Part shown: positions 3,545 through 57,617 of the stretch, piece by piece | How positions within the stretch are numbered: the first letter of the stretch is position 1 | Layout of the letters: each line of letters starts with the position of its first letter | Source: Candidatus Eremiobacterota bacterium | Lineage (GTDB): Bacteria; Vulcanimicrobiota; Vulcanimicrobiia; Vulcanimicrobiales; Vulcanimicrobiaceae | Assembly: GCA_019235885.1 (NCBI GenBank) | Contig: JAFAKB010000049.1 | Location: 1-64,000 of the forward strand | Length of the DNA stretch: 64,000 nucleotides | Direction of reading: 5' to 3' | The notes under the pieces: model-generated | Database searches by the model: none | The model's input: the letters and a program-made list of their open reading frames with translations, nothing else | What the model was told of the DNA's origin: nothing | Position numbers and translations under genes: made by a program

Positions 3545-3552
3545 TGGCGTGC

Positions 3553-4059: not shown

Positions 4060-4073
4060 CGTAGACCGTTCCC

Positions 4074-4091
4074 GTGCCAGGCGTGTGGCAC
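4074..4091. promoter_or_regulatory. Dyad in the divergent radA / small-gene promoter region
   Basis: A perfect 6-bp inverted repeat, GTGCCA-N6-TGGCAC, sits in the short gap between the divergent starts at 4059 and 4114. The spacing is right for a dimeric regulator binding between two promoters. No convincing -35/-10 pair was found, so this is a candidate only. Confidence 0.3.
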
Positions 4092-4113
4092 AATGGAGAC
4101 GTAACAATATCTC

Positions 4114-5436
4114 GTGGCGAAGGCCAAGTCGGTTTATTTCTGTACCGCGTGCGGGTTCGAGTCGGGGCGCTGGCTGGGTCGCTGTCCGTCGTGCGAGGCG
4201 TGGAACACGTTCGAGGACGCGCCGGTGATCAAGCCGGCGAAAGGCGCGCAGGCGCGCGCGGTCGCGGCGCTGCGGACGGCCGGGCCGGTTCCGCTGGCGG
4301 CGGTCGAGGGCGCGCGCGTCGTGCGGCGCCGCACCGGGATGGCCGAGTTCGACGCGCTGCTCGGCGGCGGGATCGTCCCCGGCAGCTTGGTGCTGCTCGG
4401 CGGGCCGCCCGGGGCGGGGAAGTCGACCCTGCTGCTGCAGCTCGCGACGAAGCTCGCGCGCGACGGCTCGCGCGCGGTGTACGTGTGCGGCGAGGAGTCC
4501 GCGGCGCAGACGAAGCTGCGCGCGCAGCGCGTCGGCGCGGCCGAGTCGCTGCTGGTCTTTCCGGAGACGAACTTGCGCGCGATCGTCGACGCGCTGGAGC
4601 GCGACGTTCCCGAGGTGCTCGTCGTCGACTCGATTCAAACGATGTGGCTGCCCGAAGTGGAATCCTTCGCCGGCAGCGTCTCGCAGGTTCGCGACTGCAC
4701 GTCGGTCTTGATGGAGTTCGCCAAGCGGACCGGTTGCGCGACGTTCGTGGTCGGCCACGTCACGAAGGACGGCGCGATCGCCGGGCCGCGGCTGCTCGAG
4801 CACCTGGTCGACACCGTGCTCTACTTCGAAGGCGATCCGTCGGGCGAGTACCGCATCGTGCGCGCGTACAAGAACCGCTTCGGCGGGATCGACGAGATCT
4901 GCGTCTTCGCGATGGACGATGGCGGGCTGCACGAGGTCGCCGACCCGTCGGCGCTCTTTCTGCACGGGCGCGGGGCGCGCCCGAGCGGCTCGTGCGTCGT
5001 GCCGACGCTGGTCGGGACGCGCCCGGTGCTGGTCGAGATCCAAGCGCTGGTCGGCGAGGCCGCGTACGGCACGCCGCGCCGGCTCGCGGCCAACGTCGAC
5101 GCGGCGCGCATGGCGATGATCATCGCGATCCTCGAGCGCCGCGCCGGCATGCACCTCGGCGGGCACGACGTCTACTGCTCGGTCGCCGGCGGCCTGCGCG
5201 TCGCGGAGACGGGCGCCGACCTCGGGATCGCGCTGGCGATCGCCTCGGCGTTTCGCGACGTCGCGCTCGTGCCCGGAACCGTCGCGTTCGGTGAGCTGGG
5301 GCTCTCCGGGGAGGTGCGGACCGTCTCGCAACCCGCGCGCCGGGCCGCCGAGTCGACGAAGCTCGGCTTCACCCGGCTCGTCACGCCGGAAGGCGCGCGC
5401 GACCTCGCCGCTGCAATCCGCCTTGCCTTCGACTGA
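4114..5436 (+). CDS. radA: DNA repair protein RadA
   Basis: RecA-like ATPase that promotes branch migration during homologous recombination. 440 residues, full length. It has an N-terminal C4 zinc finger (Cys10, Cys13, Cys24, Cys27), a Walker A motif GGPPGAGKST (96-105), the RadA-specific KNRFG at 253-257, and a C-terminal Lon-protease-like domain (VGEAAYGTPRR through SVAGGLRV and GELGLSGEVR). The start is the GTG at 4114, just before MAKAKSVYFC, the usual RadA N terminus. A peptidase gene follows after 22 bp on the same strand. Confidence 0.96.
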   Translation: MAKAKSVYFCTACGFESGRWLGRCPSCEAWNTFEDAPVIKPAKGAQARAVAALRTAGPVPLAAVEGARVVRRRTGMAEFDALLGGGIVPGSLVLLGGPPGAGKSTLLLQLATKLARDGSRAVYVCGEESAAQTKLRAQRVGAAESLLVFPETNLRAIVDALERDVPEVLVVDSIQTMWLPEVESFAGSVSQVRDCTSVLMEFAKRTGCATFVVGHVTKDGAIAGPRLLEHLVDTVLYFEGDPSGEYRIVRAYKNRFGGIDEICVFAMDDGGLHEVADPSALFLHGRGARPSGSCVVPTLVGTRPVLVEIQALVGEAAYGTPRRLAANVDAARMAMIIAILERRAGMHLGGHDVYCSVAGGLRVAETGADLGIALAIASAFRDVALVPGTVAFGELGLSGEVRTVSQPARRAAESTKLGFTRLVTPEGARDLAAAIRLAFD

Positions 5437-5458
5437 TTCGACGACCGTGAAAGATTCG

Positions 5459-7318
5459 ATGACCGAGCTGATCCCGCGCGACGTCCTGTTCGACTATCCC
5501 GAAAAAGTCATGCCCGTCCTCTCACCCGACGGAACGCGCATCGCGTACCTGGCGCCGTCGGACGGCGCGCTTTCGGTGTGGGTGCGCACGATCGGCGCGA
5601 ACGACGACCGCGTCGTTGCCTCCGATCCGAAGCGCCCGATCCGCAACGCGCTCTGGGCGCCCGACGGCACGCGCGTCCTTTACCTGCAGGACACCGGCGG
5701 CGACGAGAACTTCCACCTCTTCGCCGCCGATCCGGACGGCAACGCCGAACCGGTCGACCTGACACCGTACGAAGGGACGCGCGTCGAGCTGCAGTCGGTC
5801 GACCCGACGCGGCCCGACACGATCCTGATCGCGATGAACCGCCGCGACGCGCGCGTCTTCGACGTGCACCGGCTGGACCCGCGGAGCGGCGCGGAGACGC
5901 TCGACACCCAGAATCCCGGCACCATCGCTGCGTTCGCCGACGACGCGGAGATGCGCGTGCGCGCCGGAGTCATTCAGCACCCCGACGCATCGACGGAGAT
6001 CGTGGTGCGCGACGAGGTGAGCGCACCGTGGCGCACGCTGGCGCGCTTCGAACCCGACGACGGAACGCCCGACCTCGCCGGCTTCACCCCTGACGGCAGC
6101 GCGCTGTACACGGTCACCAGTGAGGGCGCGAACGCCGCGCGACTGGTGCGCTACGACCTTGCGAGCGGGAAGCGCGAAGAGGTCGCCGGCGATCCGCAGT
6201 ACGACGTCGCGCAGGTGCTCTTTTCGCCGCACACCAAAACGCCGATCGCGGCGGCGGTTCTGCGCGACCGGTTCGACTGGGTGGTGTTGGATGCGGCCTA
6301 CGCGGACGACTTCGCGGCGCTCGCGCGGCAGGTGCCGGGCGACGTGAAGATCGACTCGATCGACCGCGCGGACCGCAGGTGGCTCGTGTCGTCGACGATC
6401 GACGCCGGCTCGCTCTCGTATTGGACCTACGACCGCGACACGAAGCGGGCGGAACGGCTCTTCGTCGCGCGCCCGGCGCTCGAGCGCTACACGCTGGCCG
6501 AGATGAAGCCGGTCACGTACCCAGCGCGCGACGGGCTGACGATTCACGCCTACCTCAGTACGCCGGCAGGCGTCGAGCCGCGCAACCTGCCGACCGTGCT
6601 GTTCGTGCACGGCGGACCGTGGGCGCGCGACGTGTGGGGCTACAACGGCTACGTGCAGTGGCTCGCCAATCGCGGCTACGCCGTGCTGCAGCCGAACTTT
6701 CGCGGCTCGACCGGTTACGGCAAAGCGCACATGAACGCGGGCGACCGCGAGTGGGCCGGCGCGATGCACCACGATCTCCTCGACGCGAAAGACTGGCTGG
6801 TCGCGCGAGGGATCAGCGATCCGGCGCGGGTCGCGATCATGGGCGCCTCATACGGCGGCTACGCGACGCTGGCGGCGCTGGCGTTCGCGCCGGACGCGTT
6901 CGCCTGCGGGGTGGACATCGTGGGCCCGTCCAACTTGAACACGCTGCTCGCCTCGATCCCGCCGTACTGGGAGACGCTGCGCGCAACGTTCACCCGCCGC
7001 ATGGGCGAGGACGAAGCGTTCCTCGCCGCGCAGTCGCCGCTCTTCAAAGCCGACGCGATCCGCGCGCCGCTGCTGATCGGCCAAGGCGCGAACGACCCGC
7101 GGGTGAAGATCGCCGAGTCGGACCAGATCGTCGAAGCGATGCGCCGCAACGGCCAGCCGGTGACCTACGTCGTCTTCGAGGACGAAGGCCACGGCTTCGC
7201 GCGTCCGGAGAACAACAAGCGCTTCAACGCCGCGGTCGAGGCCTTCTTGCGCGACACCCTCGGCGGCCGCGCCGAACCCGCAAGCCCCGACGAGTCGATC
7301 GAGGCGTATCTACGATAG
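5459..7318 (+). CDS. S9 family (prolyl oligopeptidase / acylaminoacyl-peptidase type) serine peptidase
   Basis: Cytosolic serine peptidase of the alpha/beta-hydrolase S9 group. 619 residues from the ATG at 5459; a GTG at 5447 is an alternative start. The N-terminal ~370 residues form a beta-propeller (WD-like blocks such as SPDGTRIAYLAP and WAPDGTRVLYL). The C-terminal hydrolase domain carries the oxyanion block FVHGGPWARD, the nucleophile elbow GASYGGY (Ser464), Asp546 in GANDPRVK and His578 in DEGHGF, a complete triad. No signal peptide is seen. It sits 22 bp after radA and converges on the M61 gene. Confidence 0.9.
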   Translation: MTELIPRDVLFDYPEKVMPVLSPDGTRIAYLAPSDGALSVWVRTIGANDDRVVASDPKRPIRNALWAPDGTRVLYLQDTGGDENFHLFAADPDGNAEPVDLTPYEGTRVELQSVDPTRPDTILIAMNRRDARVFDVHRLDPRSGAETLDTQNPGTIAAFADDAEMRVRAGVIQHPDASTEIVVRDEVSAPWRTLARFEPDDGTPDLAGFTPDGSALYTVTSEGANAARLVRYDLASGKREEVAGDPQYDVAQVLFSPHTKTPIAAAVLRDRFDWVVLDAAYADDFAALARQVPGDVKIDSIDRADRRWLVSSTIDAGSLSYWTYDRDTKRAERLFVARPALERYTLAEMKPVTYPARDGLTIHAYLSTPAGVEPRNLPTVLFVHGGPWARDVWGYNGYVQWLANRGYAVLQPNFRGSTGYGKAHMNAGDREWAGAMHHDLLDAKDWLVARGISDPARVAIMGASYGGYATLAALAFAPDAFACGVDIVGPSNLNTLLASIPPYWETLRATFTRRMGEDEAFLAAQSPLFKADAIRAPLLIGQGANDPRVKIAESDQIVEAMRRNGQPVTYVVFEDEGHGFARPENNKRFNAAVEAFLRDTLGGRAEPASPDESIEAYLR

Positions 7319-9862: not shown

Positions 9863-12556
9863 ATGCCCGCTCGCCGCATCGTCACCGCGCTCTTCGCGCT
9901 TGCGCTGCTTTGTCTGCCGCTGAACCTTGCTCCGGCGCGCGCCGCGCAAAGCGTCGACGCGCCGGCCCCGCAGGCGCGCACGCTCGCCAACGGCCTGAAA
10001 GTCGTCGTCATCGAAGACCACGCCGCGCCGGTCGCGCAGGTGCACATGTGGTACCGCTTCGGCGCGCTCGACGAGACGCCCGGGAAGACCGGGCTCGCGC
10101 ACGCGCTCGAGCACATGATGTTCCGCGGCACGCGCGACCTCTCGAGCGCGGGGCTCGACGACATGACGGCGCGGCTCGGCGCCGAGGTCAACGCGCAAAC
10201 CGAGAACGAGATGACGCACTTCTTCTTCGTCGTCCCGTCCGACCGCGTTGAGACGATCGTGCACCTCGAAGCCGACCGGATGCGCGGGCTCAAGCTCGAT
10301 CCCGCCGACTGGAACCTCGAGCGCGGCGCGGTCCTCGAAGAGTACGCGCAGAAGCACAGCAACCCGGTGAGCGCGTTCATCTACGACGTCAACCAGCGCG
10401 TCTATCCGAACTCGCGGCTCGGCGAGACCTCGCTCGGCGCGAAGGCCGACATCGAGAAAGCGACCGTCGCCGACCTGCGCCGCTACTACGACGAATGGTA
10501 CCACCCGAACAACGCGACGCTCACCGTCGCCGGCGACGTGAAAGCCGCGGACGTCTTCGCGGAGGCGGAGCGCTGGTTCGGCAAGATACCTTCAGCGCCG
10601 CTCCCCGCGCGCCACACCTACGCGCTCAAGCCGGCGGTCGGCACGACGTACACCACCCGCTCGGACTTCCCGTACACGATCGTCGACGAAGCGTACGCGG
10701 CGCCGGGCAACGCCAAGCCGTACGAGCACGACCAGGTCCGCAACGACGTCGCGCTCGGCGCGATGTTCAACCCGCGCGGCCCGTTCCGCACGCTGGTCGA
10801 GCGCGGGCTCGTCCTCGACTACAACCCGACGCCGCTCGAGGACCGGCGCGCCTCCGTCGTGCACGTGATGCTGATCGTCGCGCCCGGGCACACCCCCGGC
10901 GAAGTGCGGAGCGCATACGAGAAGATCATGGCGAGCCTGCTCGCAAAGGGACTCGATCCCGATCTGTTCGCGGCCTCGAAGCGCTCCGAGCTCGCCTCGA
11001 TGACGTATGCGCGCGACTCCATCGTCGGGATCGGCGACGCGGTCGGCGCGAACATGGTCTTCCCGGGTGATACCGATCCCTCGGAGTTCGACGCGCTCTA
11101 CGGCGCGATCACGCGCGACGAGGCGACCGCCGTCGCGCGCCGCGTCTACGCGAAGGCGAGCGTCGTCGCGACGCTGCAGCCGACGCAGTTCGATCCGGAG
11201 AAGGCGAAGCCGCCGGCCGGCGTGAGCTCCTCGGTCAGCGACAACTTCGGAAACCGCACCTCGAACGGTCCGCTCGTGCAGCCGGACTGGATGAAGGCCG
11301 CGCTGGCGAAGCCGCTCACCTTGCGCAGCTCGGTCGACCCGACCGTCACCACGCTGCCGAACGGAATGCGTCTGCTGGTGCAGCGCGTTGCGACGAATCC
11401 CACCGTCTTCGTCGACGGGCTGGTGCGCACGTCGCCCTCGTTCGATCCGCCGGGGAAAGAAGGTCTGGGCGAGGTCACCTCGGCGCTGCTCGACTACGGC
11501 AGCGCGAAGTACGATTACGACGCGCAGCGCAAGCTCGCCGACGACCGCGCGGCGGAGCTCTCGTTCGGCACGGCGTTCTCGGCGCACGGCCGCGCGAGCG
11601 ATTTCGGCGTGCTGCTCGACGCGCTCGCCGACGACGTGCGCCACCCGCTCCTTCCCGCCGACAAGTTCTCGCTGGTGAAGTCGCAGCTCGCAGCGTACAC
11701 CGGCCGGCGCGCGCTGCAAGCGGGGTACGCAGCGCAGCGGCTCTTCGACGCGGCGCTCTATCCGGCCGGCGATCCGGCGCTGCGCGTCGCGACGGAGCGT
11801 TCGATCGGGAACGTCACGCTCGACGACGTCAAGGCGTATCACGCGCAGTACGTGCGCCCGGATCTGACCACGCTCGTCGTCGTCGGCGACGTCGATCCGG
11901 CGGCGGTGCGCGCAGCGGTGCAGCGCGCCTTCGGCGACTGGACCGCGAACGGGCCGAAGCCCGATCCCCACCTGCCGCCGATCCCGCTTCCGAAGCCGAC
12001 GACGCGCATCGTCACCACCGCGACGCAGGACGTCACCGTGCAGCTCGGCGCGCCGGCGCTCGCGCGCAGCTCGCCCGACTACGACCCGCTCACGCTCGCC
12101 AACGCGATCTACGGCGCGGACGGCTCGCTGGAGTCCCGGCTCTTCCGCGAAGTCCGCGAACAGCGCGGGCTCGTGTACAGCGCGGCGAGCTCGCTGGAAG
12201 CGAACCGCGACCGCGGGACGTTCACGGTCTCGTTCAGCGCGGTCCCCTCGAAGATCGATGCCGCCGAAGAGCTGGTCCGCGCCGAGCTCAAGCGCATGCA
12301 GGCCGAGGACGTCAGCGCCGAGGAGCTAGCGCGCGCCAAGACGCGCGTCGTCGCGACGGCGCTGAACGCCGAGCAGGCGACGAGCGCGATCGCGGGCGAC
12401 CTGCTGCGGATCGGCCTGGACGACCTCGCGCCGACATACTACGCCACGCTCGCCGACCGCTACGCCTCGATCACCGCGGCCGACGTGCGCCGCGCGGCGC
12501 AGACCTACTTCCATCCCGACAACCTGGTCGAGGTCCGCATCGGCCCGCCGGGCTGA
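9863..12556 (+). CDS. M16 family zinc peptidase, exported, two-domain
   Basis: 897 residues with a signal peptide (hydrophobic core ALFALALLCLPLNLAP, likely cleavage near ARA-AQ). The N-terminal M16 unit has the inverted zinc motif HALEH (His80, Glu83, His84) and the downstream glutamate region NAQTENEMTHFFF. The second M16 unit begins near residue 490 (TTLPNGMRLLVQRV) and has no HxxEH, so it is the inactive partner domain. It contains the substrate-binding REQRGLVYSAASSLE. This matches the fused heterodimer layout of bacterial M16B peptidases (PqqL/YmxG-like). It likely degrades peptides in the periplasm. Confidence 0.9.
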   Translation: MPARRIVTALFALALLCLPLNLAPARAAQSVDAPAPQARTLANGLKVVVIEDHAAPVAQVHMWYRFGALDETPGKTGLAHALEHMMFRGTRDLSSAGLDDMTARLGAEVNAQTENEMTHFFFVVPSDRVETIVHLEADRMRGLKLDPADWNLERGAVLEEYAQKHSNPVSAFIYDVNQRVYPNSRLGETSLGAKADIEKATVADLRRYYDEWYHPNNATLTVAGDVKAADVFAEAERWFGKIPSAPLPARHTYALKPAVGTTYTTRSDFPYTIVDEAYAAPGNAKPYEHDQVRNDVALGAMFNPRGPFRTLVERGLVLDYNPTPLEDRRASVVHVMLIVAPGHTPGEVRSAYEKIMASLLAKGLDPDLFAASKRSELASMTYARDSIVGIGDAVGANMVFPGDTDPSEFDALYGAITRDEATAVARRVYAKASVVATLQPTQFDPEKAKPPAGVSSSVSDNFGNRTSNGPLVQPDWMKAALAKPLTLRSSVDPTVTTLPNGMRLLVQRVATNPTVFVDGLVRTSPSFDPPGKEGLGEVTSALLDYGSAKYDYDAQRKLADDRAAELSFGTAFSAHGRASDFGVLLDALADDVRHPLLPADKFSLVKSQLAAYTGRRALQAGYAAQRLFDAALYPAGDPALRVATERSIGNVTLDDVKAYHAQYVRPDLTTLVVVGDVDPAAVRAAVQRAFGDWTANGPKPDPHLPPIPLPKPTTRIVTTATQDVTVQLGAPALARSSPDYDPLTLANAIYGADGSLESRLFREVREQRGLVYSAASSLEANRDRGTFTVSFSAVPSKIDAAEELVRAELKRMQAEDVSAEELARAKTRVVATALNAEQATSAIAGDLLRIGLDDLAPTYYATLADRYASITAADVRRAAQTYFHPDNLVEVRIGPPG

Positions 12557-12559
12557 GTT

Positions 12560-15022
12560 TCATTCCAAGCCCAGGGGCCGCTGCAGCGTCACTGGGACCA
12601 GCATCGGCCGGCGATCAAGGATTTCGCGGCGCTCATATCCCCACATGCCGTCAAGCCGCTCGGTCCCCGTCGTCTTCTCGAGACCTTCCGAGACCATTCG
12701 CAGCCCTTCCAAGATGCCCGGAACGAGAATGAGACGGCCGGCGGCGTCGCGCGGAAGTTGCCAGCGGAAGCTCTGCAGCGTTCCGATTTCCACCATCGAC
12801 TCTTGCATCATCCCGTGCAGCGCGCGAAGACGAAACAGGACGGCGAGCAAACCGCAGGTCGAGAAGAAGCTGTAGGGCTCCATTTCTCCTATCAGTGCGC
12901 GGAGATCCTCCTCGGTGCGCACGGTTCGAACGCGATCGCGCAGATCGTCCCTGTCGTTCCCGGCACTTGAGACGATTGCGTGCGGACGCACGTCGATGAA
13001 TCCGCCGGTTGCGAGATTGAAATCGCGATACATCTGATAGGAGCATCGGTTCCGACTGCGCTGATGAAGCGTACGCAGCTCCTCGCTGAGCCTCGACTCA
13101 TGCGTGAAGAATAGCTCGAGCGGTGCGATATAGTATCCCGTCCGAAGCTGGTTGACGCCGTGTTCGTCGGCAAACACAATGGGCGAGCCGAGCGACGGAA
13201 TCGCCCACACCGCGTGCAGAGCCCTGCTCAGAACACGCTGCTTCGCATCGCGGCGCTTCGGGAAGAGCTCTTCCCCCGTCGGTCGCAGCAGTGGCTCCAA
13301 ATCTTGGACCGAGTCCGCGCTGACGAGACGCCGCAAGTCGGATGCGAGCGATTCAACGCGCCATGATGCGACGGTCTCGAGCGTCAGCGTGTCACTGTGC
13401 TCGATGAAAAAGGCTTCGGGATCGAACCGCTGCAGGTCGACGTACGGGTCGATTGCGTTGACGTCGAACGTGCGCAGACGGTGGAGCAGGATGAACAGTG
13501 CAAGCGTGTGCAGCTCGCCCTGATGCTTCGCGGAGCCGAGATCCTGGAGCGCCATCGGGTCGAGCCCAGAGAGCTGTGCTTGCCGCAGCCGGTCCTGGCT
13601 GAGAAAGTCGAACACCTGCCGCGAGTTGTCGCTTTCGGTGTAGTAGCATACGTGCTCGGGGAACCATGGCGACTGGTTGTCGTCCTTTAGGAGAGCCATG
13701 CGTGCAAGGACCAACCCGAGCTCCGATGTGGAGGCCACGCGCATGACGCGGTAGAGCGCGTCGGCGTTCGCAACGCTGAAGAACCCGTTCTCGCCACTGC
13801 GCAGCGCGTACGATGGTACGATCTCTTCACCTTCGTCGAACTTCACGGCTTTGCGTTGGGTGGCGTCAAGGGTGACCGTGATCGGCTGGAACCAGCGCAA
13901 AAAGCGCGGCTTGCGCTCGCCGGGATCCTCTTTTCGCATCCGTCCGGAACGCTCGGGTGGCTCCCGGATCGGCCGCATCTCCTCAGGCATGTCGTCCAGC
14001 CGTTGCCGCAGCCCGGAATGGAGCGGGATGTGCTCGCGTATGCGAACCTCGTCGACACCGATCGCGGCGGCGGTGATCAGCACGTTGATGCCGGCCTTGA
14101 CGTACCGCTGCGTGAGCGCCGCCGCATATTGCTGCTTCTCCGCGAGCTTCTCGTCGTGCGCGCTGTGCGCGAAGCCAAGCCGGATCGAAATGCGGCCAGT
14201 GTGGTCTTCGTCGTACATCCCGCCGACCGCGGTGGTGTGCGCGATCACGAGGGTCTCCGTGAGGTCATCGCGTACGTGCGTGAGATCGTCCTGCAGAATG
14301 GCGACGAAATGCTCCTTCAGCTTCTCCACCTCGGGGGCGAAGCCGTCGATCAGTTCCGCGACGACGTCCAAATTGCGCTCGTGATAGCTCAGCAAGGTGG
14401 GGATCGGAATGCCGATCGTGACGGAGCGGAATCGCTCGACCCGCCGGTCCCCCCGCCACTGGCCCCGATATTCCGTGAGCCATCTGCTGAACGGATCGGT
14501 CGGCACGGCCTTTGCGAGGTCCGCGCCGATGCGCTCGGGGGAGTTTTCGATGCGCCCTCCGAGGCCTTCTAGCACGGCGGGCAGCCGCTCGCGACGTTGC
14601 CGTTCCGGCAGTTGCGCAAACGGTTTCAGCTTCGGGAGAGCGTCGATCTCGAATCGCTCGAGCGCGATGAAGACGCCGCTGTGAGTCAGATATCCGTGGT
14701 GCATCGGCGTCGGCGGCTTCATCTCCGGGTGCCGCGACTGAACGTACCGGAACAAGCGCTTCGTGAAGACCTGGATCTCTTTGGGACTTGCGCCGGTGGC
14801 GACGATGATGGGAACGTCTTCGTCGGCTGGCGGCGCCACGCACAGCATCTCCTCGTACATCGAAAGAAGCTCGAGCACCGCGGTCCCGCCGACTCCTCCC
14901 GTGCCTCCGAAAAAGACGTGCACGTCTCGGTATCGCTCACCGCTGCGCGCGGCGTCGACGAGCAGTGGTCCAAGCCGCTCTTTTTTGAAGCCCAAAATAC
15001 CCTCCTCGTAGGGCCAATCCAA
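12560..15022 (-). CDS. Large protein of unknown function with a glycine-rich nucleotide-binding-like N terminus
   Basis: 820 residues; I do not recognise the family. Near residues 33-50 it has VHVFFGGTGGVGGTAVLELL, a beta-turn-alpha with GGTGGVGG. This resembles either a Rossmann dinucleotide loop or the tubulin-type G-box. A second hydrophobic strand (VPIIVATGASPKE) follows. The remainder is soluble and helix-rich, with no signal peptide or membrane segment. The only usable start near the 5' end is a TTG at 15022 with no good ribosome site, so the start is weak; an in-frame TTG nine codons later is an alternative. Base composition is less GC-rich than neighbours, and it converges on the M16 gene with a 3-bp gap. 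It may have been acquired horizontally. Confidence 0.7.
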   Translation of the reverse strand: MDWPYEEGILGFKKERLGPLLVDAARSGERYRDVHVFFGGTGGVGGTAVLELLSMYEEMLCVAPPADEDVPIIVATGASPKEIQVFTKRLFRYVQSRHPEMKPPTPMHHGYLTHSGVFIALERFEIDALPKLKPFAQLPERQRRERLPAVLEGLGGRIENSPERIGADLAKAVPTDPFSRWLTEYRGQWRGDRRVERFRSVTIGIPIPTLLSYHERNLDVVAELIDGFAPEVEKLKEHFVAILQDDLTHVRDDLTETLVIAHTTAVGGMYDEDHTGRISIRLGFAHSAHDEKLAEKQQYAAALTQRYVKAGINVLITAAAIGVDEVRIREHIPLHSGLRQRLDDMPEEMRPIREPPERSGRMRKEDPGERKPRFLRWFQPITVTLDATQRKAVKFDEGEEIVPSYALRSGENGFFSVANADALYRVMRVASTSELGLVLARMALLKDDNQSPWFPEHVCYYTESDNSRQVFDFLSQDRLRQAQLSGLDPMALQDLGSAKHQGELHTLALFILLHRLRTFDVNAIDPYVDLQRFDPEAFFIEHSDTLTLETVASWRVESLASDLRRLVSADSVQDLEPLLRPTGEELFPKRRDAKQRVLSRALHAVWAIPSLGSPIVFADEHGVNQLRTGYYIAPLELFFTHESRLSEELRTLHQRSRNRCSYQMYRDFNLATGGFIDVRPHAIVSSAGNDRDDLRDRVRTVRTEEDLRALIGEMEPYSFFSTCGLLAVLFRLRALHGMMQESMVEIGTLQSFRWQLPRDAAGRLILVPGILEGLRMVSEGLEKTTGTERLDGMWGYERREILDRRPMLVPVTLQRPLGLE

Positions 15023-15085
15023 GGGGGACGAGCTGGCCGTTTCGTGTCACCGCCCGGCCTACCATCCTACGCAGCCGGCACGCAG

Positions 15086-15142
15086 CTAAGGAATTAGTTG
15101 ACAGCCGCACGGCACTCGAGTATCCTGCTACTAATTTCTTAG
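15086..15142 (+). promoter_or_regulatory. blaI-1 promoter with paired BlaI-type operators
   Basis: A strong sigma-70 promoter is visible: TTGACA (15098-15103), 17-bp spacer, TATCCT (15121-15126). It is bracketed by two matching 12-bp dyads of the form CTAA-N4-TTAG: one at 15086-15097 touching the -35, the other at 15131-15142 over the predicted start site. The two 13-bp arms match at 12 positions in inverted orientation. Paired AT-rich dyads flanking the promoter are the classic layout for autorepression by BlaI/MecI, here with a different core from the known TACA/TGTA operator. Confidence 0.8.
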
Positions 15143-15164
15143 CAGCTTGCCCCGGAGGACCCAC

Positions 15165-15551
15165 GTGGCCCGTCGCCGCACGCATGGTTTGACCGACGCG
15201 GAGCTTCGGCTCATGGAGGTTCTCTGGCGAGACGGACCGGCGAAGGTGAGCGACGTCGTGGACGCGCTCCCGCCGCCGGCGCTCTCGTACAGCAGCGTGC
15301 TGACGACGCTGCGCATCCTCGAGCGCAAGGGCTACGTCGCGCACGAGCAGCTCGACCGCGCGTATCTCTACCGTGCGGTGGTGGCGCGCGAAGCCGCCGC
15401 GGAAACCGCGGTCGGCCACCTCGTGAACCGCTTCTTCTCCGACTCGCCGGTCGAGCTCGCGCTGCAGCTCGTCGAGCGCGACCGCCCCTCCGAGGACGAG
15501 CTGCAGCGGCTCAGAGCGCTGATCGAACGCTACGAGGAGGATGCGTCATGA
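15165..15551 (+). CDS. BlaI/MecI family winged-helix repressor
   Basis: 128 residues. The start is the GTG at 15165 because GGAGGA lies at 15154-15159, five bases upstream; a TTG at 15147 is in frame but has no such site. The winged helix (LTDAELRLMEVLWRDGP, then LSYSSVLTTLRILERKGYV) and the C-terminal dimerisation helix (FFSDSPVELALQLVE) follow the BlaI pattern. In known systems BlaI is cleaved after the partner M56 protease senses a ligand. That partner gene follows with a four-base overlap (ATGA), and paired dyads flank the promoter, so autoregulation is likely. Confidence 0.9.
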   Translation: MARRRTHGLTDAELRLMEVLWRDGPAKVSDVVDALPPPALSYSSVLTTLRILERKGYVAHEQLDRAYLYRAVVAREAAAETAVGHLVNRFFSDSPVELALQLVERDRPSEDELQRLRALIERYEEDAS

Positions 15552-17716
15552 CGCCGTTCGTTCCGGCCGGGATCGAGTCGCCGGCGCTCGCCGTCGTCGC
15601 GTACATCGTCGACAGCGCGTGGGAAGCAGTGGCGATCGTCGCGCTCGCGGCGCTGGTGATCCGGCTGTTCAAGCGCGCCAACGCGACGACGCGCTACGCC
15701 GTCTGGTACATCGCGCTGCTCGCCGTCATCGTGCTGCCGGCGGTGACGGTGGCCGCGATGTTGCTCGCGCCGCACGCGCTCGCGCAAGGACCGCGAATCG
15801 CGCTGCCGCACGCCGTGACGCTGATCGCCGCGGCGCTGTGGGGCGTCGGCGCGCTGGCCGGGCTGCTACGGATCGCGGTGGGCTACGCCGCGCTCGCGAA
15901 GCTTCAGCGCGACGCGCTTCCGCTGCCGCCCGGCTACCGCGAGGCGATGCCGCTGTGGGAAGAGTCGATCGGGCGCGGCCGCGAGACGCGGCTGTGCGTT
16001 TCCTCGAACGTCGCGGTGCCGGTCGCGGTCGGCCTCTTCGACGGCATGATCTTGATGCCCGACCACCTGCTCGAAAGCTTCGACCGCGCCGACGTCGACC
16101 GCTTCAGCCTGCACGAGATGGCGCACTTGCAGCGCCGCGACGACTGGACGTGCGCGCTCGAGCGGATCGCGTGCGCGGTGCTCTTCTTCAACCCCGCCGT
16201 GCGCTGGATCGCGCGCCAGCTCGACCTCGAGCGCGAGGTCGCGTGCGACGACTGGGTCGTCGCGCAGACGCGCGAGGTGCGCCCGTACGCGGTCGGGCTC
16301 ACGAAGATGGCCGAGGCGACGAAGTGGCCGCACCGAGCGGTTCCGACCCCGGCAATCTTCGCCTCGCGCAAGAGCATCTCGATTCGCATCGAGCGGCTGC
16401 TGAACAAGCACCGCGACGTGCGCCCCACGCTGACCGGCGGCCCCGCCGTCGCGTGCGGCGCGGCGATCCTAGCCGCCTCGGCGGTGCTGCTCTCCGTCGC
16501 GCCGGTGATCGGCAGCGTCAACACGGCGGCCGCGCCGCTGGAGGTGGGCAAAGCGCAGCCCGGACCAGCGATGCGAAGAAAGCAGCCGGTGAAGCCGCCT
16601 GCGCTCGCGCACGCAAAGTGGCCGGCTCGCGTGGCGGTCGATTCGGGGCTCGCGGGGAGGACGCGGCATCCGCTCGAGACGGTGAACGCGCAGGTCTCCG
16701 CCAATACGCAGGTCTCCGCCGCCAATGCGCAGGTCGCCGCCTCCAACGCGCGCGTGGCCGCCGCGCGCCGGGACGTCACAGCGTCCACCGCGCGCATTGC
16801 GGCCGCGAACGCGCATCTCAAGAGACAGCTGAAAACGTCGAGCGCGGTGCTCGCGACGTCGAATGGATTCGTCGTGACCTCGAACGGACAAGTTGCGAGG
16901 TCGAACGCCGACGTCGCCGCGGCGAACGCGCTCGTCGCGGCAGCGAACGGGCGGCTGAAGACGACTACCCTCACGATCGACACGGCGCATCATCACGCCA
17001 TGATGATCCCGCCCTTGAACGGCACGGCCGAGCTCGAAGTGTTGCAGCACCGGCTCATGCAGTCGCAGCATGCCGTCGAGCTGCAAAGCGTCGCGCCGCT
17101 TCCGCGGGAGCGGCTGATGGCCGTTTCCGGGCAGCTCGCACAAGTGATGGCGCAGGCGGCGCCGCAGCCGCATCCGCAGCCGAGACGCGCGGACTATCTC
17201 GACGCGCTCTCGGCCGCCGGCTACGCGAACCTCAGTGCCGACGACATGATCGCGCTGCACGACAACGGCGTAAGCGGCAGCTTGATCGTCGCGTCGGCGC
17301 GCTACTTCAACCCGCGGCCGAGCGTGAAGGAGCTCATCGCGCTCTCTACCTCCGGCGTGTCGGGAACCTACATCGAGGAGCTCAGCCGATACGGCTTGCG
17401 CGCCGGGCCGAGCGACGTCCGCGCATACACGCTGAACGGCGTCTCGGCGCCGTACGCGGCGATCGTGCTGCACGCCTATCCGATGCTGGGCACGTCCTCG
17501 GTGATCCAGCTCATGCAGAACGGCGTTCCCTCGCGGCTCGTCGCCGGGCTGCGCGAGCGCGGCTATGCGCCGACGCTCTCGGAGATCGTGGAGCTTGCGC
17601 AGCACGGCGTCTCGCTCGAGTACGTCGACGCGGTGAACGCGCATCGCGGCGCGCGGATGAGCCTGCCGGAGATCGTCAAGCTCCACGACCACGGGGTGAG
17701 CGCCGATGCGAGCTAA
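15548..17716 (+). CDS. BlaR1-like M56 membrane zinc protease with coiled-coil and HGV-repeat sensor region
   Basis: 722 residues. Predicted membrane helices lie at about 15-38, 50-75 and 85-108. The cytosolic M56 domain has HEMAHLQRRDDW (His189, Glu190, His193), and a fourth helix is at about 297-318. Instead of a penicillin-binding sensor, the C-terminal half has an alanine-rich heptad region (units like VAASNAR/VAAANAL, about 375-475). It is followed by about six ~26-residue repeats with the pattern Y..LS..D/E.I.L...GVS...I (about 555-722). The gene overlaps blaI upstream and the next repeat-protein gene downstream by 11 bp. The repeats match those of that protein, so the sensor probably reads a self-like protein partner; this is inference. 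Confidence 0.85.
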   Translation: MTPFVPAGIESPALAVVAYIVDSAWEAVAIVALAALVIRLFKRANATTRYAVWYIALLAVIVLPAVTVAAMLLAPHALAQGPRIALPHAVTLIAAALWGVGALAGLLRIAVGYAALAKLQRDALPLPPGYREAMPLWEESIGRGRETRLCVSSNVAVPVAVGLFDGMILMPDHLLESFDRADVDRFSLHEMAHLQRRDDWTCALERIACAVLFFNPAVRWIARQLDLEREVACDDWVVAQTREVRPYAVGLTKMAEATKWPHRAVPTPAIFASRKSISIRIERLLNKHRDVRPTLTGGPAVACGAAILAASAVLLSVAPVIGSVNTAAAPLEVGKAQPGPAMRRKQPVKPPALAHAKWPARVAVDSGLAGRTRHPLETVNAQVSANTQVSAANAQVAASNARVAAARRDVTASTARIAAANAHLKRQLKTSSAVLATSNGFVVTSNGQVARSNADVAAANALVAAANGRLKTTTLTIDTAHHHAMMIPPLNGTAELEVLQHRLMQSQHAVELQSVAPLPRERLMAVSGQLAQVMAQAAPQPHPQPRRADYLDALSAAGYANLSADDMIALHDNGVSGSLIVASARYFNPRPSVKELIALSTSGVSGTYIEELSRYGLRAGPSDVRAYTLNGVSAPYAAIVLHAYPMLGTSSVIQLMQNGVPSRLVAGLRERGYAPTLSEIVELAQHGVSLEYVDAVNAHRGARMSLPEIVKLHDHGVSADAS

Positions 17717-18761
17717 AAGCGCGCGGACGACAGCGACCGCGCTGGCGCTCGGCCTCGTCCTGGCCGCGCTCGCGCCGTCGCAGCCTGCCGCGGCGCACGA
17801 AACCGTTCGCGAGTGGTCGCTGACCGCCCGCGACGCCACCGCGGTCAACCTGCGCATCGTCTTCGAGACGTACGAACCGAACGGCTCCCACCGCGTCGAC
17901 ATGAACACGAGCGCGGTGCCGTACGCGACGATCCGCGGCCTGACCGCGGCCGACGTCGCGGCGCCGACGGCCGAGAAGCGGTTCGAGATCGCTGAAGATT
18001 CCGGCACGCTGGCGTTCAGCGGTGTCGTCGGAAACGGTCGCGGCAAGGGCACGTACGACTTTACGAGCGATCCCGCGTTTCAGCGCGCGCTCGCCCACCA
18101 CGGGATGCGACCGGCGACGGACGTGGAGGGTCTGGAGCTGGCGCTGCACCACTTCAAAGCCTCGACGCTCGACGACGTCGTCACGAGCGGCGTCCAGGCG
18201 CCCACACCGGCCGATCTGGTCACCATGACCGACCACGGCGTCGGCGCCGAGTACCTGCGCGGCTTCAAGGGCGTCGCGCTCGTTCCGAAGACCGCTGCCG
18301 CGCTCGCGCAGCTCCGCGATCACGGTGTGACGCCGGACTACGTGCAGGCGTTCTCGAATGCCGGCTACCGCCCGATCTCGGTCGCCGAGCTGTCGCTCGC
18401 GCGCGACCACGGCGTCGACGCGAAACAGGCGTACGAGATCCGCGCCGCGATGCCGTCTCTCTCAATGAGCGACTTGGCGACGCTGCGCGATCACGGCGTG
18501 AAGCCGAGCCTAGTCCAAGCGCTGGCGCACTCGAGCTACCGCGACCTGCGCGTGAGCGACATCGCGACGCTGGCCGATCACGGCGTCTCGGGACAGTACG
18601 TCACCGACATGAGCAGCCTCGGTTACCATCCGCCAGCGAGCGATCTCGCGCTGTTGCACGATCACGGCGTCTCGACGACGTTCATCCAGCGGTTGCGCAG
18701 CCACGGCTACGGCGCGATGAGCACCGCCGACATCATCAAACTCTACGAGCACGGTATCTAG
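17706..18761 (+). CDS. Secreted HGV-type repeat protein, partner of the M56 sensor
   Basis: 351 residues. It starts at the ATG at 17706, overlapping the M56 stop by 11 bp. The signal peptide has the core ALALGLVLAALAPSQPAAA. Residues ~32-105 form a non-repeat beta-rich domain (WSLTARDATAVNLRIVFETYE). From about 110 to the end there are eight to nine repeats of ~26 residues, with cores such as DLVTMTDHGVGAEYL, DLATLRDHGVKPSLV and DIATLADHGVSGQYV. These are the same repeats as in the C terminus of the upstream M56 protease. Similar DHGV repeats occur downstream of BlaI/M56 pairs in other bacteria from memory; function unknown. Likely periplasmic. Confidence 0.8.
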   Translation: MRAKSARTTATALALGLVLAALAPSQPAAAHETVREWSLTARDATAVNLRIVFETYEPNGSHRVDMNTSAVPYATIRGLTAADVAAPTAEKRFEIAEDSGTLAFSGVVGNGRGKGTYDFTSDPAFQRALAHHGMRPATDVEGLELALHHFKASTLDDVVTSGVQAPTPADLVTMTDHGVGAEYLRGFKGVALVPKTAAALAQLRDHGVTPDYVQAFSNAGYRPISVAELSLARDHGVDAKQAYEIRAAMPSLSMSDLATLRDHGVKPSLVQALAHSSYRDLRVSDIATLADHGVSGQYVTDMSSLGYHPPASDLALLHDHGVSTTFIQRLRSHGYGAMSTADIIKLYEHGI

Positions 18762-53312: not shown

Positions 53313-53356
53313 TCCTTAAATTAATAGTTGACAGCGCGCCCACGGCGTGCTAGCGT
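53313..53356 (+). promoter_or_regulatory. blaI-2 promoter, leaderless
   Basis: TTGACA (53328-53333), 17-bp spacer and TAGCGT (53351-53356). The 11-mer TAGTTGACAGC around the -35 is identical to the one in the blaI-1 promoter. An AT-rich near-dyad (CTTAAATTAATAG, 53315-53327) adjoins the -35 where the operator lies in the first system. The -10 ends six bases before the ATG at 53363, so the mRNA is probably leaderless. Confidence 0.7.
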
Positions 53357-53362
53357 CGTCCC

Positions 53363-53746
53363 ATGCCCCGCAAGAAGTCGCCGACCCTCACCGAGGCGGA
53401 GTACCGCCTCATGCAGGTCCTTTGGGACCGCGGTGAGTCGAGCGTCGCCGAAGTCGTCGATGCGATCGGCGATCCGCCGCTCGCGTACAACACCGTCCTC
53501 ACCACGATGCGCATCCTCGAGCAGAAAGGCTACGTCCGCCACAAAGCGGCCGGCCGCGCCTTCATCTACAAAGCCGTCGTCGCGCGCGACGAAGCGCAGC
53601 GCAGCGTGGTCACCCACGTGCTCTCCCGGTTCTTCGACGGCTCGCCGCGCGAGCTGGTGCTGAACCTGCTCGAATCCGAAGCCGTCGACGACACCGAGCT
53701 CGACCGGCTGCGGGAGCTCCTCGACAAGGCCAAAGGCCAGCAGTAA
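53363..53746 (+). CDS. BlaI/MecI family winged-helix repressor
   Basis: 127 residues. The layout is the same as the blaI at 15 kb: LTEAEYRLMQVLWDRGESS, LAYNTVLTTMRILEQKGYV, and the C-terminal FFDGSPRELVLNLLE. The TAA stop is immediately followed by the ATG of the M56 gene with no spacer. It likely represses this operon and is relieved by the M56 protease. Confidence 0.9.
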   Translation: MPRKKSPTLTEAEYRLMQVLWDRGESSVAEVVDAIGDPPLAYNTVLTTMRILEQKGYVRHKAAGRAFIYKAVVARDEAQRSVVTHVLSRFFDGSPRELVLNLLESEAVDDTELDRLRELLDKAKGQQ

Positions 53747-55972
53747 ATGCTCGAGGCGGTCGTCGGCGTCGCGCTTCGCGCGATTCTCGCGAGCGTCGTC
53801 TTGGGCGGAGTGCTCGGCGCGCTGGTGCTCATCGCCACGCGCGCGCTCGCACTCACCGCCGCGACCCGGCACGCGCTGTGGACGACCGCGCTCCTCGCGA
53901 CCGCCTTGATGCCGCTGGCCGGCGTCGGCGTCAGCGTCGCGAGAGCGTACGCCGCACCCCAGCTTGTCGCCACCGCGCCCGAGACGGTGAAGGTCGTACG
54001 GGCCCCGCTCTCGGACATCGGTACGAAATCCCGAACGGCGCACGATTCTTCTGCGCTCGCTCAGCCGCCTGAACCGAAATCGCCGGCGCAGACGCCGGCG
54101 AGCTCGCCGCGCTCCGACGCGTCGCATTCCTTTGCGTCCTCACTGCGCGACCGGTTCACGTTCGCGGGGTGGACGCCGCGCGTGACGCGGAATCTCGCCG
54201 CCGGCGTGGTCGGCGTATGGCTGCTCGGCGCGCTGATCGGATTGTTCGGGTTGGCCGCGAGCATCCTGCGTGTGCGCGGCCTCAAGCGGCGCTCGAGCCC
54301 ACTCGACGGAACGCTCGCCGACGAGCTCCCGTGGCTGACCGCGCCGAACGCGGCGCGCGAGATCTACCTGCGCCTGTCTTACGAGACCGAGACGCCGGTG
54401 GCGATCGGCTTCCGCCGGCCGGTGATCCTGATTCCGACCGAGCTTGCGACGGCCGAAGGGCTCGCCGCGATCGAGTCGCTCGTGCTGCACGAGTACGCGC
54501 ACTTGGCGCGCCACGACGACTGGACGAACCTCGTGCAGCGCACGATCGAGCGGATCTTCTGGTTCAACCCGGTGGTGTGGCTGGTCGGGCGCCGGATCGC
54601 GCTCGAGCGCGAGATCGCCTCCGACGACGCGGTCGTCGAGAAGACCGGCGAGCCGCACGCCTACGCGACCTCGCTGTGGCGGCTCGCGCGCGAGATGCGC
54701 ATGCCCGAGCACGCCGTCGTCGCGCCGGGCGCGCTGCTGACCCGCAAGCAGATCACCGTGCGCATCGAGCAGCTGCTCGACAAGAAGCGCGCGCGGCTGC
54801 ACCGCTCGCCGGCGACCGCGCTCGGCGTCGCGCTCGCCGCGCTGCTCGCCGTCGGTTTCGTCGCGACGAGCGCGCCGGCGATCGAGCTTCCGCGCGCCGA
54901 ATCGCCGCTCGCAACGTCGAACGCGGCAGCAGTGCCGGCGGCCCATACGACGGCGGCGCGCCGCGTCGTGGCGTGGCACGAGACGACGCACGTCACCACG
55001 CCGGCCGGTGCCGCGAAAGCGATTGCCGCCCAGCACGCGAACGCTGGCACGACCGCGCCCGAAACGACGACCGTGAAGACGGAGCACACGATCGTTCGGT
55101 ACCAGAGCGCTCAGTCGAAGCCGGTCGTGAACGAGCGGATCGTCTACCTGCACGACAGACAGAACTCCAAGACCGTGCCGGCGCCGCCGGCCGACTCGGT
55201 TCCGGTCCCGCCGGCTCCGCCGGCTCCGCCGGGCGCCCCCGCCGTGCCGCCGGTTCCCGGGTTCGGTCCCGACATCGCGAAAACGATCAGCGCGGCGATG
55301 GCGGCGGTACCGCGCGAGATCGCTCAGGAGACCGGAGCCCCGCGCAAGCGGCACGCGAAGTACGACGGCTCGAAGGTCACCCGCGAGATCGTCGCCTCGT
55401 GCCTCGGCTGCTCGTTCCGCGGCAGCGACGCGCGCGGCGTGGACCTGCACGGCTTGAAGATCGTCGGCGACGACTTCAGCGACGCCGACCTGCGCGGCGC
55501 GAACCTCTCCGGCGCACGGCTCGCCGGCGTCTCGCTGGCGCGGGCGAAGCTCGCCGACGCGAACTTGCGCGGCGCGGCGTTCGCCGGCGTCGACCTCGAG
55601 GGCACCGAGCTCGACGGCGCACTGCTCGACAACGTCACGATGGCGGGCATCTCGATGCAGCACGTCGCGCTGCGCGGCGTCGGTCTGCGGAACATCATGG
55701 CGAAGTGCACGGGCTGCGACTTCTCCCGCATGGACTTGCACGGTGAAGACCTGCGCGGCATCGTGCTGAACGGCGCGGACCTGAGCCACAGCGACCTGCA
55801 CGGCGCGAACCTCAGCGGCGTGCGCTTCAACGGTGTCGACCTCTCGCACGCCGATCTGAGCGGCGCCGACCTCACCAACGCGCAGTTCGCCGGCTGCGAC
55901 CTGAGCACGACGAACCTGCACAACGCGCGCATCACCGGGATGACGATGCAGGGAAGCTCGCTCGGCGAATGA
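53747..55972 (+). CDS. BlaR1-like M56 membrane zinc protease with pentapeptide-repeat C-terminal module
   Basis: 741 residues. Membrane helices lie at about 8-28, 36-60 and 150-172. The zinc site is LHEYAHLARHDDW (His248, Glu249, His252), and another helix is at about 365-383 (ALGVALAALLAVGFVATSAPA). A Pro/Ala-rich linker (PPAPPAPPGAPAVPPVPG, about 490-505) follows. The C-terminal ~190 residues are pentapeptide repeats (ADLRGANLSGARLAG, ADLSHSDLHGANLSG), twice interrupted by CxGC motifs (SCLGCSFRG, KCTGCDFSR). The module would lie in the periplasm. The same CxGC-plus-pentapeptide design occurs in the two secreted proteins that follow. Confidence 0.85.
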   Translation: MLEAVVGVALRAILASVVLGGVLGALVLIATRALALTAATRHALWTTALLATALMPLAGVGVSVARAYAAPQLVATAPETVKVVRAPLSDIGTKSRTAHDSSALAQPPEPKSPAQTPASSPRSDASHSFASSLRDRFTFAGWTPRVTRNLAAGVVGVWLLGALIGLFGLAASILRVRGLKRRSSPLDGTLADELPWLTAPNAAREIYLRLSYETETPVAIGFRRPVILIPTELATAEGLAAIESLVLHEYAHLARHDDWTNLVQRTIERIFWFNPVVWLVGRRIALEREIASDDAVVEKTGEPHAYATSLWRLAREMRMPEHAVVAPGALLTRKQITVRIEQLLDKKRARLHRSPATALGVALAALLAVGFVATSAPAIELPRAESPLATSNAAAVPAAHTTAARRVVAWHETTHVTTPAGAAKAIAAQHANAGTTAPETTTVKTEHTIVRYQSAQSKPVVNERIVYLHDRQNSKTVPAPPADSVPVPPAPPAPPGAPAVPPVPGFGPDIAKTISAAMAAVPREIAQETGAPRKRHAKYDGSKVTREIVASCLGCSFRGSDARGVDLHGLKIVGDDFSDADLRGANLSGARLAGVSLARAKLADANLRGAAFAGVDLEGTELDGALLDNVTMAGISMQHVALRGVGLRNIMAKCTGCDFSRMDLHGEDLRGIVLNGADLSHSDLHGANLSGVRFNGVDLSHADLSGADLTNAQFAGCDLSTTNLHNARITGMTMQGSSLGE

Positions 55973-55987
55973 CCCCCGCTCTTCTTT

Positions 55988-56015
55988 TTGGCCGCTACAC
56001 TTATTTCATTAGTTA
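55988..56015 (+). promoter_or_regulatory. Candidate internal promoter/BlaI-like site before the first pentapeptide gene
   Basis: TTGGCC (55988-55993) with a 16-bp spacer to TAGTTA (56010-56015) is a weak promoter. ACTTATTTCATTAGT (55999-56013) across it resembles the CTAA-N4-TTAG operators of blaI-1 (shared ends CTTA/TTAG). If real, BlaI could control the secreted proteins independently. Confidence 0.3.
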
Positions 56016-56039
56016 CAAAATCTGCCCAAGGAGGCTGCC

Positions 56040-56906
56040 GTGATCCGTTCCCTCGTCCTCGCCGCGCTCGCGCTGCTCGTCTGCGCGGCGGCGATACCCG
56101 CCCGGGCGCAAGACACGCTTTCGCGCGAGCTCATCGACGCGTGCGTCGGCTGCCGCTTGCCGCACGACTTGCACGGGCGCGACTTGCACGGTTTGCGCTT
56201 CGTCGGCACCGACTTGCGCGATGTCGACTTTTCGCACGCGAACTTGAGCGGCGCGCAGTTCACCGGCGCGAACCTCGACGGTACGCGCTTCGACGACGCC
56301 GACCTGCGCAACGCGCGATTCGTGGGCGTGCGGCTGGGACGCGCCTCGTTCGCGCGCGCGAACACCGACGGGGTGAGCTTCGTCGGCGCGAAGGTGACGC
56401 AGGCGGCGCTCGACGGCACGCTCGGCCGCGTCATCATCCGCAACTGCACCGGCTGCGCGCTGCAAGGTCTCGACCTGCACGGCGCCGACCTGCGCGGGAT
56501 CAAGGTCGTCGGCGCGAACCTGAGCGATGCGAACTTCGCCGGCGCGCGGCTCAACGACGCGCAGCTGATCGGCGTCCGCGCCCACGACGCCGATTTCTCG
56601 CGCGCCGACCTGCACGGCGCGAACCTCTTCGGCGCCTCGCTGCGCGGCACGAAGCTCGCCGGCGCCGCGATCGGCGACGCGGTGCTGTGCAGCGAAGCGC
56701 GCGACTACTACCCGTCCGGCACCACCGAGCACCGCACGATCTGTGCCGACCTGCGCGGCGTCGACCTGCGCGGGCTCGACTTTCGCGCCGCGCGGTGGTG
56801 CAGCAACGACGATGAAGCGCGCCCGCGCACCTGCCGCACCGTCACCCGCCAAGAGCTGATCGACATCGCTCACGCCGACCTCACCGGCGCGCAAGCGCCC
56901 GCCTAA
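56040..56906 (+). CDS. Secreted pentapeptide-repeat protein with CxGC motifs, first copy
   Basis: 288 residues. The start is the GTG at 56040 with AAGGAGG five bases upstream. The signal peptide is SLVLAALALLVCAAAIPARA. The mature protein starts LSRELIDACVGCRLPHDLHGRDLHG and runs in pentapeptide repeats (DLRDVDFSHANLSGAQFTGANLDG), with a second motif IRNCTGCALQGLDLHGADL midway. Further cysteines are near the end (VLCSEARDYYP, ARWCSNDD, RPRTCR). The repeat would fold as a right-handed beta-helix. Same design as the C-terminal module of the M56 protease upstream. Confidence 0.85.
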   Translation: MIRSLVLAALALLVCAAAIPARAQDTLSRELIDACVGCRLPHDLHGRDLHGLRFVGTDLRDVDFSHANLSGAQFTGANLDGTRFDDADLRNARFVGVRLGRASFARANTDGVSFVGAKVTQAALDGTLGRVIIRNCTGCALQGLDLHGADLRGIKVVGANLSDANFAGARLNDAQLIGVRAHDADFSRADLHGANLFGASLRGTKLAGAAIGDAVLCSEARDYYPSGTTEHRTICADLRGVDLRGLDFRAARWCSNDDEARPRTCRTVTRQELIDIAHADLTGAQAPA

Positions 56907-56921
56907 GGAGAATTGCACCAC

Positions 56922-57617
56922 ATGCTTCGACCGATCGCTCTCGGGCTCGCCGCGCTCGCGCTGACGCTCGCCGTTCCCGCAGCGCCGGCGGGCGCCGAGG
57001 ACAACCTCGTCCGCCAGCTCGTCAACGCGTGCACCGGCTGCCGCTTCCCGCACGACCTGCGCGGGCGCGACCTGCACGGCCTGCACTTCGTCGGCGCCGA
57101 CCTGCGCGACGTCGACCTCTCGCGCGCCAACTTGAACGGCGCGGCCTTCGTCGGCGCGGACCTGGAGAACGCGCGCTTCGACGACGCCGACCTGCGCAAC
57201 ACGCGCTTCACCGGCGTGCGCTTCGCCAACACCTCGTTCGCGCGCGCCAAGCTCGAGAACGTCACGATGGAAGGCGTGCGGCTCGGGCCGGGCGCGATCG
57301 TCGGCGCCGACTGGACGAGCTTCGTGCGCCGCTGCGTCGGCTGCGACCTGAGCGGAAGGGCGAGCATCCCACGCCGCTATCGCACGTACGCCGATGTCGA
57401 ACAGCGCCTGCGCGAGCTCGCGCTGCACCCGCCGACGATTCCGCCGGACGTGATGCGCCGGCTGCACGAGCTGGAGCTGCACCCGCCGGCGGTTCCGCCG
57501 CTGCCGCCGCTTCCCGACTGGTTCGATTCGACGCCGCCCGCGCCGCCCGCGCCGCCCGCGCCGCCTGCGCCGCCGCCCGCACCCCCGGTACCACCGGCGC
57601 CGCCGGCATCACCGTAA
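56922..57617 (+). CDS. Secreted pentapeptide-repeat protein with CxGC motifs and proline-rich tail, second copy
   Basis: 231 residues from the ATG at 56922; a TTG at 56913 is in frame but sits too close to AAGGAG. The signal peptide is PIALGLAALALTLAVPAAPAGA. The mature start LVRQLVNACTGCRFPHDLRGRDLHG is nearly identical in design to the first copy, followed by fewer repeats and a second VRRCVGCDLSG. The tail has two near-repeats (ELALHPPTIPPDVMRRLHE / ELHPPAVPP) and ends in PPAPPAPPAPP. A tandem duplication with a changed tail. A strong terminator follows. Confidence 0.83.
   Translation: MLRPIALGLAALALTLAVPAAPAGAEDNLVRQLVNACTGCRFPHDLRGRDLHGLHFVGADLRDVDLSRANLNGAAFVGADLENARFDDADLRNTRFTGVRFANTSFARAKLENVTMEGVRLGPGAIVGADWTSFVRRCVGCDLSGRASIPRRYRTYADVEQRLRELALHPPTIPPDVMRRLHELELHPPAVPPLPPLPDWFDSTPPAPPAPPAPPAPPPAPPVPPAPPASP

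Follow-up and report, generated by a model that had tools for sequence, protein, structure and literature searches.

A BlaI-M56 operon of Candidatus Eremiobacterota with a pentapeptide-repeat sensor ectodomain and a matched secreted partner

The operon described here raises the question of what a BlaR1-like M56 protease may respond to when its extracytoplasmic domain is built of pentapeptide repeats (PPR) and the genes behind it code for secreted proteins of the same repeat class. M56 genes are widespread and, to our knowledge, work on BlaR1 has dealt almost exclusively with its role in penicillin detection. The operon occupies positions 53315-57617 of the window, that is, the whole stretch of 64,000 nucleotides of Candidatus Eremiobacterota DNA that was analysed. 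It codes for BlaI, a BlaR1-like M56 protease and two secreted PPR proteins, A and B, with the following features:

53315-53329, plus strand: candidate operator 1, a BlaI-type dyad CTTAAATTAATAGTT overlapping the -35 element TTGACA (53328-53333), with a -10-like TAGCGT at 53351-53356
53363-53746, plus strand: blaI, Penicillinase_R-type repressor (PF03965, E=3e-33)
53747-55972, plus strand: M56 sensor protease, 741 aa (PF05569, E=3e-33; PF00805, E=4e-35)
55367-55969, plus strand: sensor ectodomain of two PPR beta-helix blocks, each beginning with a helix and CxGC (Pfam and model)
55400-55411 and 55706-55717, plus strand: sensor CxGC sites CLGC and CTGC
56000-56014, plus strand: candidate operator 2, CTTATTTCATTAGTT, about 25 nt 5' of the partner A start
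56040-56906, plus strand: secreted partner A (PF00805, E=3e-34), with signal peptide, two CxGC-started PPR blocks and a C-terminal four-cysteine module
56688-56903, plus strand: the private C-terminal four-cysteine module of partner A (residues 217-288), matched by an alignment model in other genomes
56913-57617, plus strand: secreted partner B (PF00805, E=9e-17), with signal peptide, PPR block and proline-rich tail

The initial annotation had described a BlaI-M56 operon with pentapeptide repeats, and Pfam matches bear this out for all its genes. The six CxGC motifs it quoted are all found: SCLGC and KCTGC in the sensor, ACVGC and NCTGC in partner A, ACTGC and RCVGC in partner B. The BlaI/MecI-type repressor gene (PF03965) lies directly 5' of the M56 gene, and its product scores under the cut-offs of the NCBIfam BlaI/MecI/CopY equivalog models. 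In the structural model of the sensor, TM helices span residues 2-33, 38-68, 144-182 and 355-375, and a disordered linker (residues ~384-538) leads to the PPR beta-helix (residues 541-741; mean pLDDT mostly 83-96 per 10-residue block). The active-site motif HEYAH is found at residues 248-252, with H248, E249 and H252 invariant in the alignment of sensors; a second HE..H, which is not the active site, sits in the linker of the window sensor. The M56 core matches BlaR1 both by sequence (PDB chains 8exs/8exp, E about 3e-8) and by fold in a structure search with the model.

Like BlaR1/MecR1 and BlaI/MecI of S. aureus (cryo-EM structures 8exp and 8exr; PMC9834060), in which BlaR1 cuts BlaI directly (PMC9834060), the window system combines a repressor with an M56 protease whose HExxH lies between TM3 and TM4 and which has a large extracytoplasmic C-terminal domain. 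It differs in that this domain is a PPR beta-helix following a ~155-aa disordered linker, instead of a domain acylated by beta-lactams, in that a secreted partner with the fold of the sensor follows, and in its operator type, TACTAAN4TTAGTA.

The signal peptide of partner A was read by inspection. Its model (mean pLDDT 82.6) features two beta-helix blocks, with a short helix and CxGC ahead of each, and a C-terminal beta-hairpin module whose four cysteines are conserved in the alignment. The top targets of a structure search are Rfr32 (2f3l/2g0y, TM-score 0.72) and AT2G44920 (3n90, 0.66), lumenal or secreted PPR proteins with a single beta-helix domain; we know of no link of either to any sensor. 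Qnr and MfpA, the cytoplasmic PPR proteins that protect gyrase, have the same repeat fold, whereas partner A carries a signal peptide and falls far under the cut-offs of their families (NCBIfam; 52 vs 240 bits for Qnr). Partner B, whose likelier start is the ATG at 56922, has a single PPR block between ACTGC and RCVGC, the latter being followed by a helical segment and the proline-rich tail with no repeat block. A gene similar to partner B is present in several members of the genus.

The 4.5 Mb source genome has four M56 genes: the window PPR sensor, two HGV-repeat sensors (window 15548-17716 and L005), each with a gene for a secreted HGV-repeat protein behind it, and L006. The HGV operon that the initial annotation had placed in the same window is real, and its parts were located as follows:

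15085-15098 and 15130-15143, plus strand: two dyads 5' of the HGV-operon blaI
15147-15551, plus strand: blaI of the HGV operon
15548-17716, plus strand: HGV-repeat M56 gene
17706-18761, plus strand: HGV-repeat secreted partner

Note that L006 codes for neither repeats nor a partner; together with its orthologues L105, L109 and L110 it has a conserved C-terminal motif, CxTCFGPLRS, and lies 5' of a conserved NUDIX-like gene.

The repeat type of sensor and secreted neighbour was surveyed at 143 M56 loci of the phylum, namely a first sample of 83 loci from 60 relatives and the source genome and 60 loci from other genomes that were added later as an independent check. A PPR partner adjoins the PPR sensor in 45 of 62 loci, is fused to it in three more and is not adjacent in 13; 23 of 26 HGV sensors have an HGV partner beside them, and neither kind of partner accompanies any of the 55 other sensors. 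Instead of the majority of mismatched loci that would speak against the modular system proposed by the initial annotation, the classes match, with no mixed repeat pair among the 68 sensors that have a separate partner. In the first sample, 19 PPR sensors (n=26) have a PPR gene directly downstream, three are fused and four have none; an HGV partner goes with 18 of 21 HGV sensors, two of these pairs (one at a contig end, one with weak repeats) having been judged by reading, and with 0 of 36 other sensors, for instance those with HEAT-like or TonB-C-like tails, was a PPR or HGV partner found. The check sample gave a PPR partner for 26 of 36 PPR sensors (nine without, one cut by a contig end; two PPR calls made by eye), an HGV partner for all five HGV sensors and either partner for 0 of 19 others. 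Fisher tests, calculated on the first sample only and ignoring kinship, returned 6e-11 for matching and 1e-14 for partner presence. PPR-scoring genes amount to 48 of the 647 called genes of at least 150 aa in the surveyed loci; with a single exception (L042:7486-8118) they code for an M56 sensor or lie directly behind such a gene. This placement is far above chance.

In the M56 tree PPR ectodomains are found in two main clades and HGV ectodomains in three; five HGV sensors form a clade nested in a well supported group that also holds ten PPR sensors. About three changes between PPR and HGV suffice, which gives two to three independent contrasts, all in the expected direction. A plasmid search with the sensor, aimed beyond the phylum, yielded only PPR proteins among the matches listed, and the contigs returned by a genome scan were all of Eremiobacterota. 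A possible hybrid M56 sensor (L169, G128:C92) has a PPR-scoring tail that ends in HGV-like units. Other ectodomain classes, recognised by eye and lacking a repeat-matched neighbour, are HEAT-like, adhesin-like beta and TonB-C-like (L063, L076, L079, L094; L065, L087; L073, L074, L085).

The same gene for a CBM9-type, probably outer-membrane, protein is found 3' of both PPR operons (L036, L038, L039, L047, L060, L088) and HGV operons (L078, L080, L089, L108), and at L005:7180-9324. It is the next gene in the PPR clade other than that of the window and in several HGV operons. Its presence in operons of both classes suggests a constant output while the repeat class differs.

The dyad ACTAAN4TTAGT, at a match of at least 8/10, precedes blaI in 40 of 58 loci; shuffled sequences reach this match in about 2% of cases. 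Candidate operator 2 reaches a leave-one-out PWM score of 17.4, compared with a shuffle mean of -4.3, and none of 500 shuffles equals it. In the clade and genus of the window the position of this second dyad is conserved, immediately 5' of partner A and 27-34 nt beyond the M56 stop codon; by leave-one-out scoring it stands far above shuffles in nine of the 11 loci that keep the partner gene and is weak in the other two. A search of the 4.5 Mb genome with the stringent oriented pattern YTTAWNNNNWTAGTT, built on the window-clade sites and orthologues, finds it at 53315 and 56000 and nowhere else. Beyond the clade of the window most loci lack the second dyad, and the partner gene simply belongs to the operon. 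The dyads at the blaI promoter and before partner A predict, from sequence, that the downstream genes are co-regulated with blaI, in line with the initial annotation.

Sensor and partner are joined in one chain at three loci (L066, L061 and L084), where the partner profile is matched through to its end, with 210-225 bits, by the C-terminal 240 residues of a longer ectodomain. These fused sensors include the C-terminal cysteine module of the partner, which all unfused sensors lack, and no separate partner was found beside them. Of 60 genomes, 21 have a single copy of the module, always with a PPR sensor and beside or inside it (hypergeometric 8e-12 over the 60 genomes, kinship ignored); G035 seems to depart from this only because contig ends overlap there. 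A set of 149 genomes holds about ten further module paralogues, in two genera, apparently unlinked to the M56 genes listed. At L056 (G008:C6) a decayed remnant of partner A lies about 30-130 nt after the M56 stop, so that a sensor apparently can persist without partner A. Note that at L066 the fused PPR sensor (3457-5883) and an HGV operon (12204-14525) lie within 10 kb, likewise at L084, and that at both loci cupredoxin and phosphoesterase genes are found behind the fused sensor. Of the modular system put forward in the initial annotation, the shared repeat class stands and is joined by the fusions, while the statement that ectodomain and partner are swapped together rests on the two to three contrasts. 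The modular reading is thus well supported as regards the repeat class shared by sensor and partner, with few (two to three) independent class swaps.

On balance, we favour as probable a proteolysis switch of the BlaI/BlaR1 type in which a PPR beta-helix has taken the place of the ligand-binding domain and which works together with a secreted PPR protein dedicated to it. The architecture, the recurrent repeat match, the fusions, the two promoter-proximal dyads and the long separate histories of sensor and partner (see below) are its observed basis. In the resting state BlaI would occupy two operators, one at the blaI-M56 promoter and one directly 5' of partner A, and the periplasmic beta-helix of the sensor would dock with partner A, probably by extension or stacking of the rod, as the natural fusions suggest. 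An envelope change that alters or removes this complex would activate the M56 protease and lead to cutting of BlaI. Sensor and partner would then be made, and fresh partner would re-occupy the sensor and reset the switch. We infer the binding of partner to sensor, its sign (reset versus activation), the cleavage of BlaI, its binding to the dyads and the nature of the stimulus.

The second dyad would close a homeostatic loop such as that of YjbI/PerA in Caulobacter, a secreted PPR protein with cysteine pairs near its ends that keeps envelope sensors silent and whose supply is restored by the very response it holds down (PMC12864828). YjbI and partner A are both secreted quadrilateral beta-helices (for A by model and inspected signal peptide); the YjbI promoter is a target of the response that YjbI silences, and partner A is preceded by a candidate operator. 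YjbI acts on two-component systems, with no report of a fold shared with the sensor (PMC12864828). Compared with YjbI as described, partner A has closely spaced CxGC cysteines and the C-terminal module as features of its own. Its cysteines (one CxGC opening each block and four at the C-terminus) differ in spacing from those of the alphaproteobacterial secreted PPR proteins with which it was compared. Several observations count against the proposed switch: a partner permanently fused to the sensor is more easily understood as a fixed subunit than as a reset ligand that diffuses, 13 of 62 PPR sensors lack an adjacent partner, some module paralogues apparently lie away from the M56 genes listed, the second dyad is mostly absent beyond one clade and class changes are few.

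The secreted PPR proteins might instead be envelope outputs made on demand, YjbI-like and located at the outer membrane or wall; the sensor would carry their repeat because it binds the envelope component that they bind, sharing a ligand with them without touching them. The dyad directly 5' of the gene would make partner A a regulated product, YjbI is itself an outer-membrane-associated secreted PPR protein (PMC12864828), the C-terminus of partner B is rich in proline and the CBM9-type protein would be a further output in relatives. Yet a fusion places partner and sensor in one chain, and an output tied to the sensor is not one that can be made on demand; such outputs accompany none of the 55 non-repeat M56 sensors. 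This alternative is considered rather unlikely.

Sensing through the CxGC pairs themselves, which would report envelope redox or metal stress by disulfide formation or metal binding as the initial annotation envisaged, is improbable. CxGC is invariant or nearly so in 13 aligned sensors as well as in the partners, cupredoxin is the next gene in the three class-level fused operons (by Pfam at L066, by similar sequence at the other two), and Zn and Cu trigger loss of YjbI in Caulobacter (PMC12864828). However, in the models of sensor and partner A the motif comes right after the short helix that opens each beta-helix block, at the N-cap, and thus looks like a structural cap; a short-query search of solved structures found no CxGC caps. 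HGV systems do without CxGC, cupredoxin is outside the window operon, and all four cysteines of YjbI can be replaced without effect on its Zn-induced turnover (PMC12864828). The modelled cap position and the replaceable YjbI cysteines speak against the proposed cue.

Still less credible is an absence of functional pairing, the secreted gene being a duplicate of the ectodomain that drifts along by linkage. Repeat class, adjacency and the common CxGC layout are what duplication would leave. In comparisons across genomes, however, sensor ectodomains find their best matches in other sensors, including those of other genera, and partners nearly always in other partners, the rare exceptions being fused sensors; the best match is never the own mate. 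A recent copy of the ectodomain is ruled out by this pattern. The conserved partner module missing from all unfused sensors, the conserved second dyad and the recurrence of such matching with HGV, an unrelated class of repeat, also argue against duplication. Lastly, an ordinary beta-lactam sensor operon, which the regulatory pair of BlaI and M56 would suggest, is refuted on architecture and has next to no probability: the M56 protein lacks a penicillin-binding sensor domain (Pfam), only PPR models match its ectodomain, it scores 72 bits against a cut-off of 400 for blaR1_generic and the operon contains no beta-lactamase.

Beyond the window, the favoured switch may be one case of a general class of protease switches, a proposal made tentatively. 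Here sensor ectodomain and a secreted co-receptor of the same solenoid would form one composite rod, with both parts changing together between PPR and HGV while the BlaI-M56 chassis stays the same. The pair can fuse, and a CBM9-type output would be shared in part of the phylum.

No description of an M56 sensor with pentapeptide repeats was found in the open-access literature. The window system is of the BlaI-M56 kind, and what is new in it is the PPR ectodomain with its matched secreted partner. In soil Candidatus Eremiobacterota the presence of a PPR-rod sensor beside a secreted protein of the same rod, in dozens of genomes, looks like a dedicated sensor-partner switch. The matched, predictably co-regulated and sometimes fused partner provides a concrete handle on such sensors as a candidate binding mate. 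If this is true, secreted PPR proteins, recently recognised as controllers of envelope signalling in Caulobacter, would be tied to a second signalling chassis.
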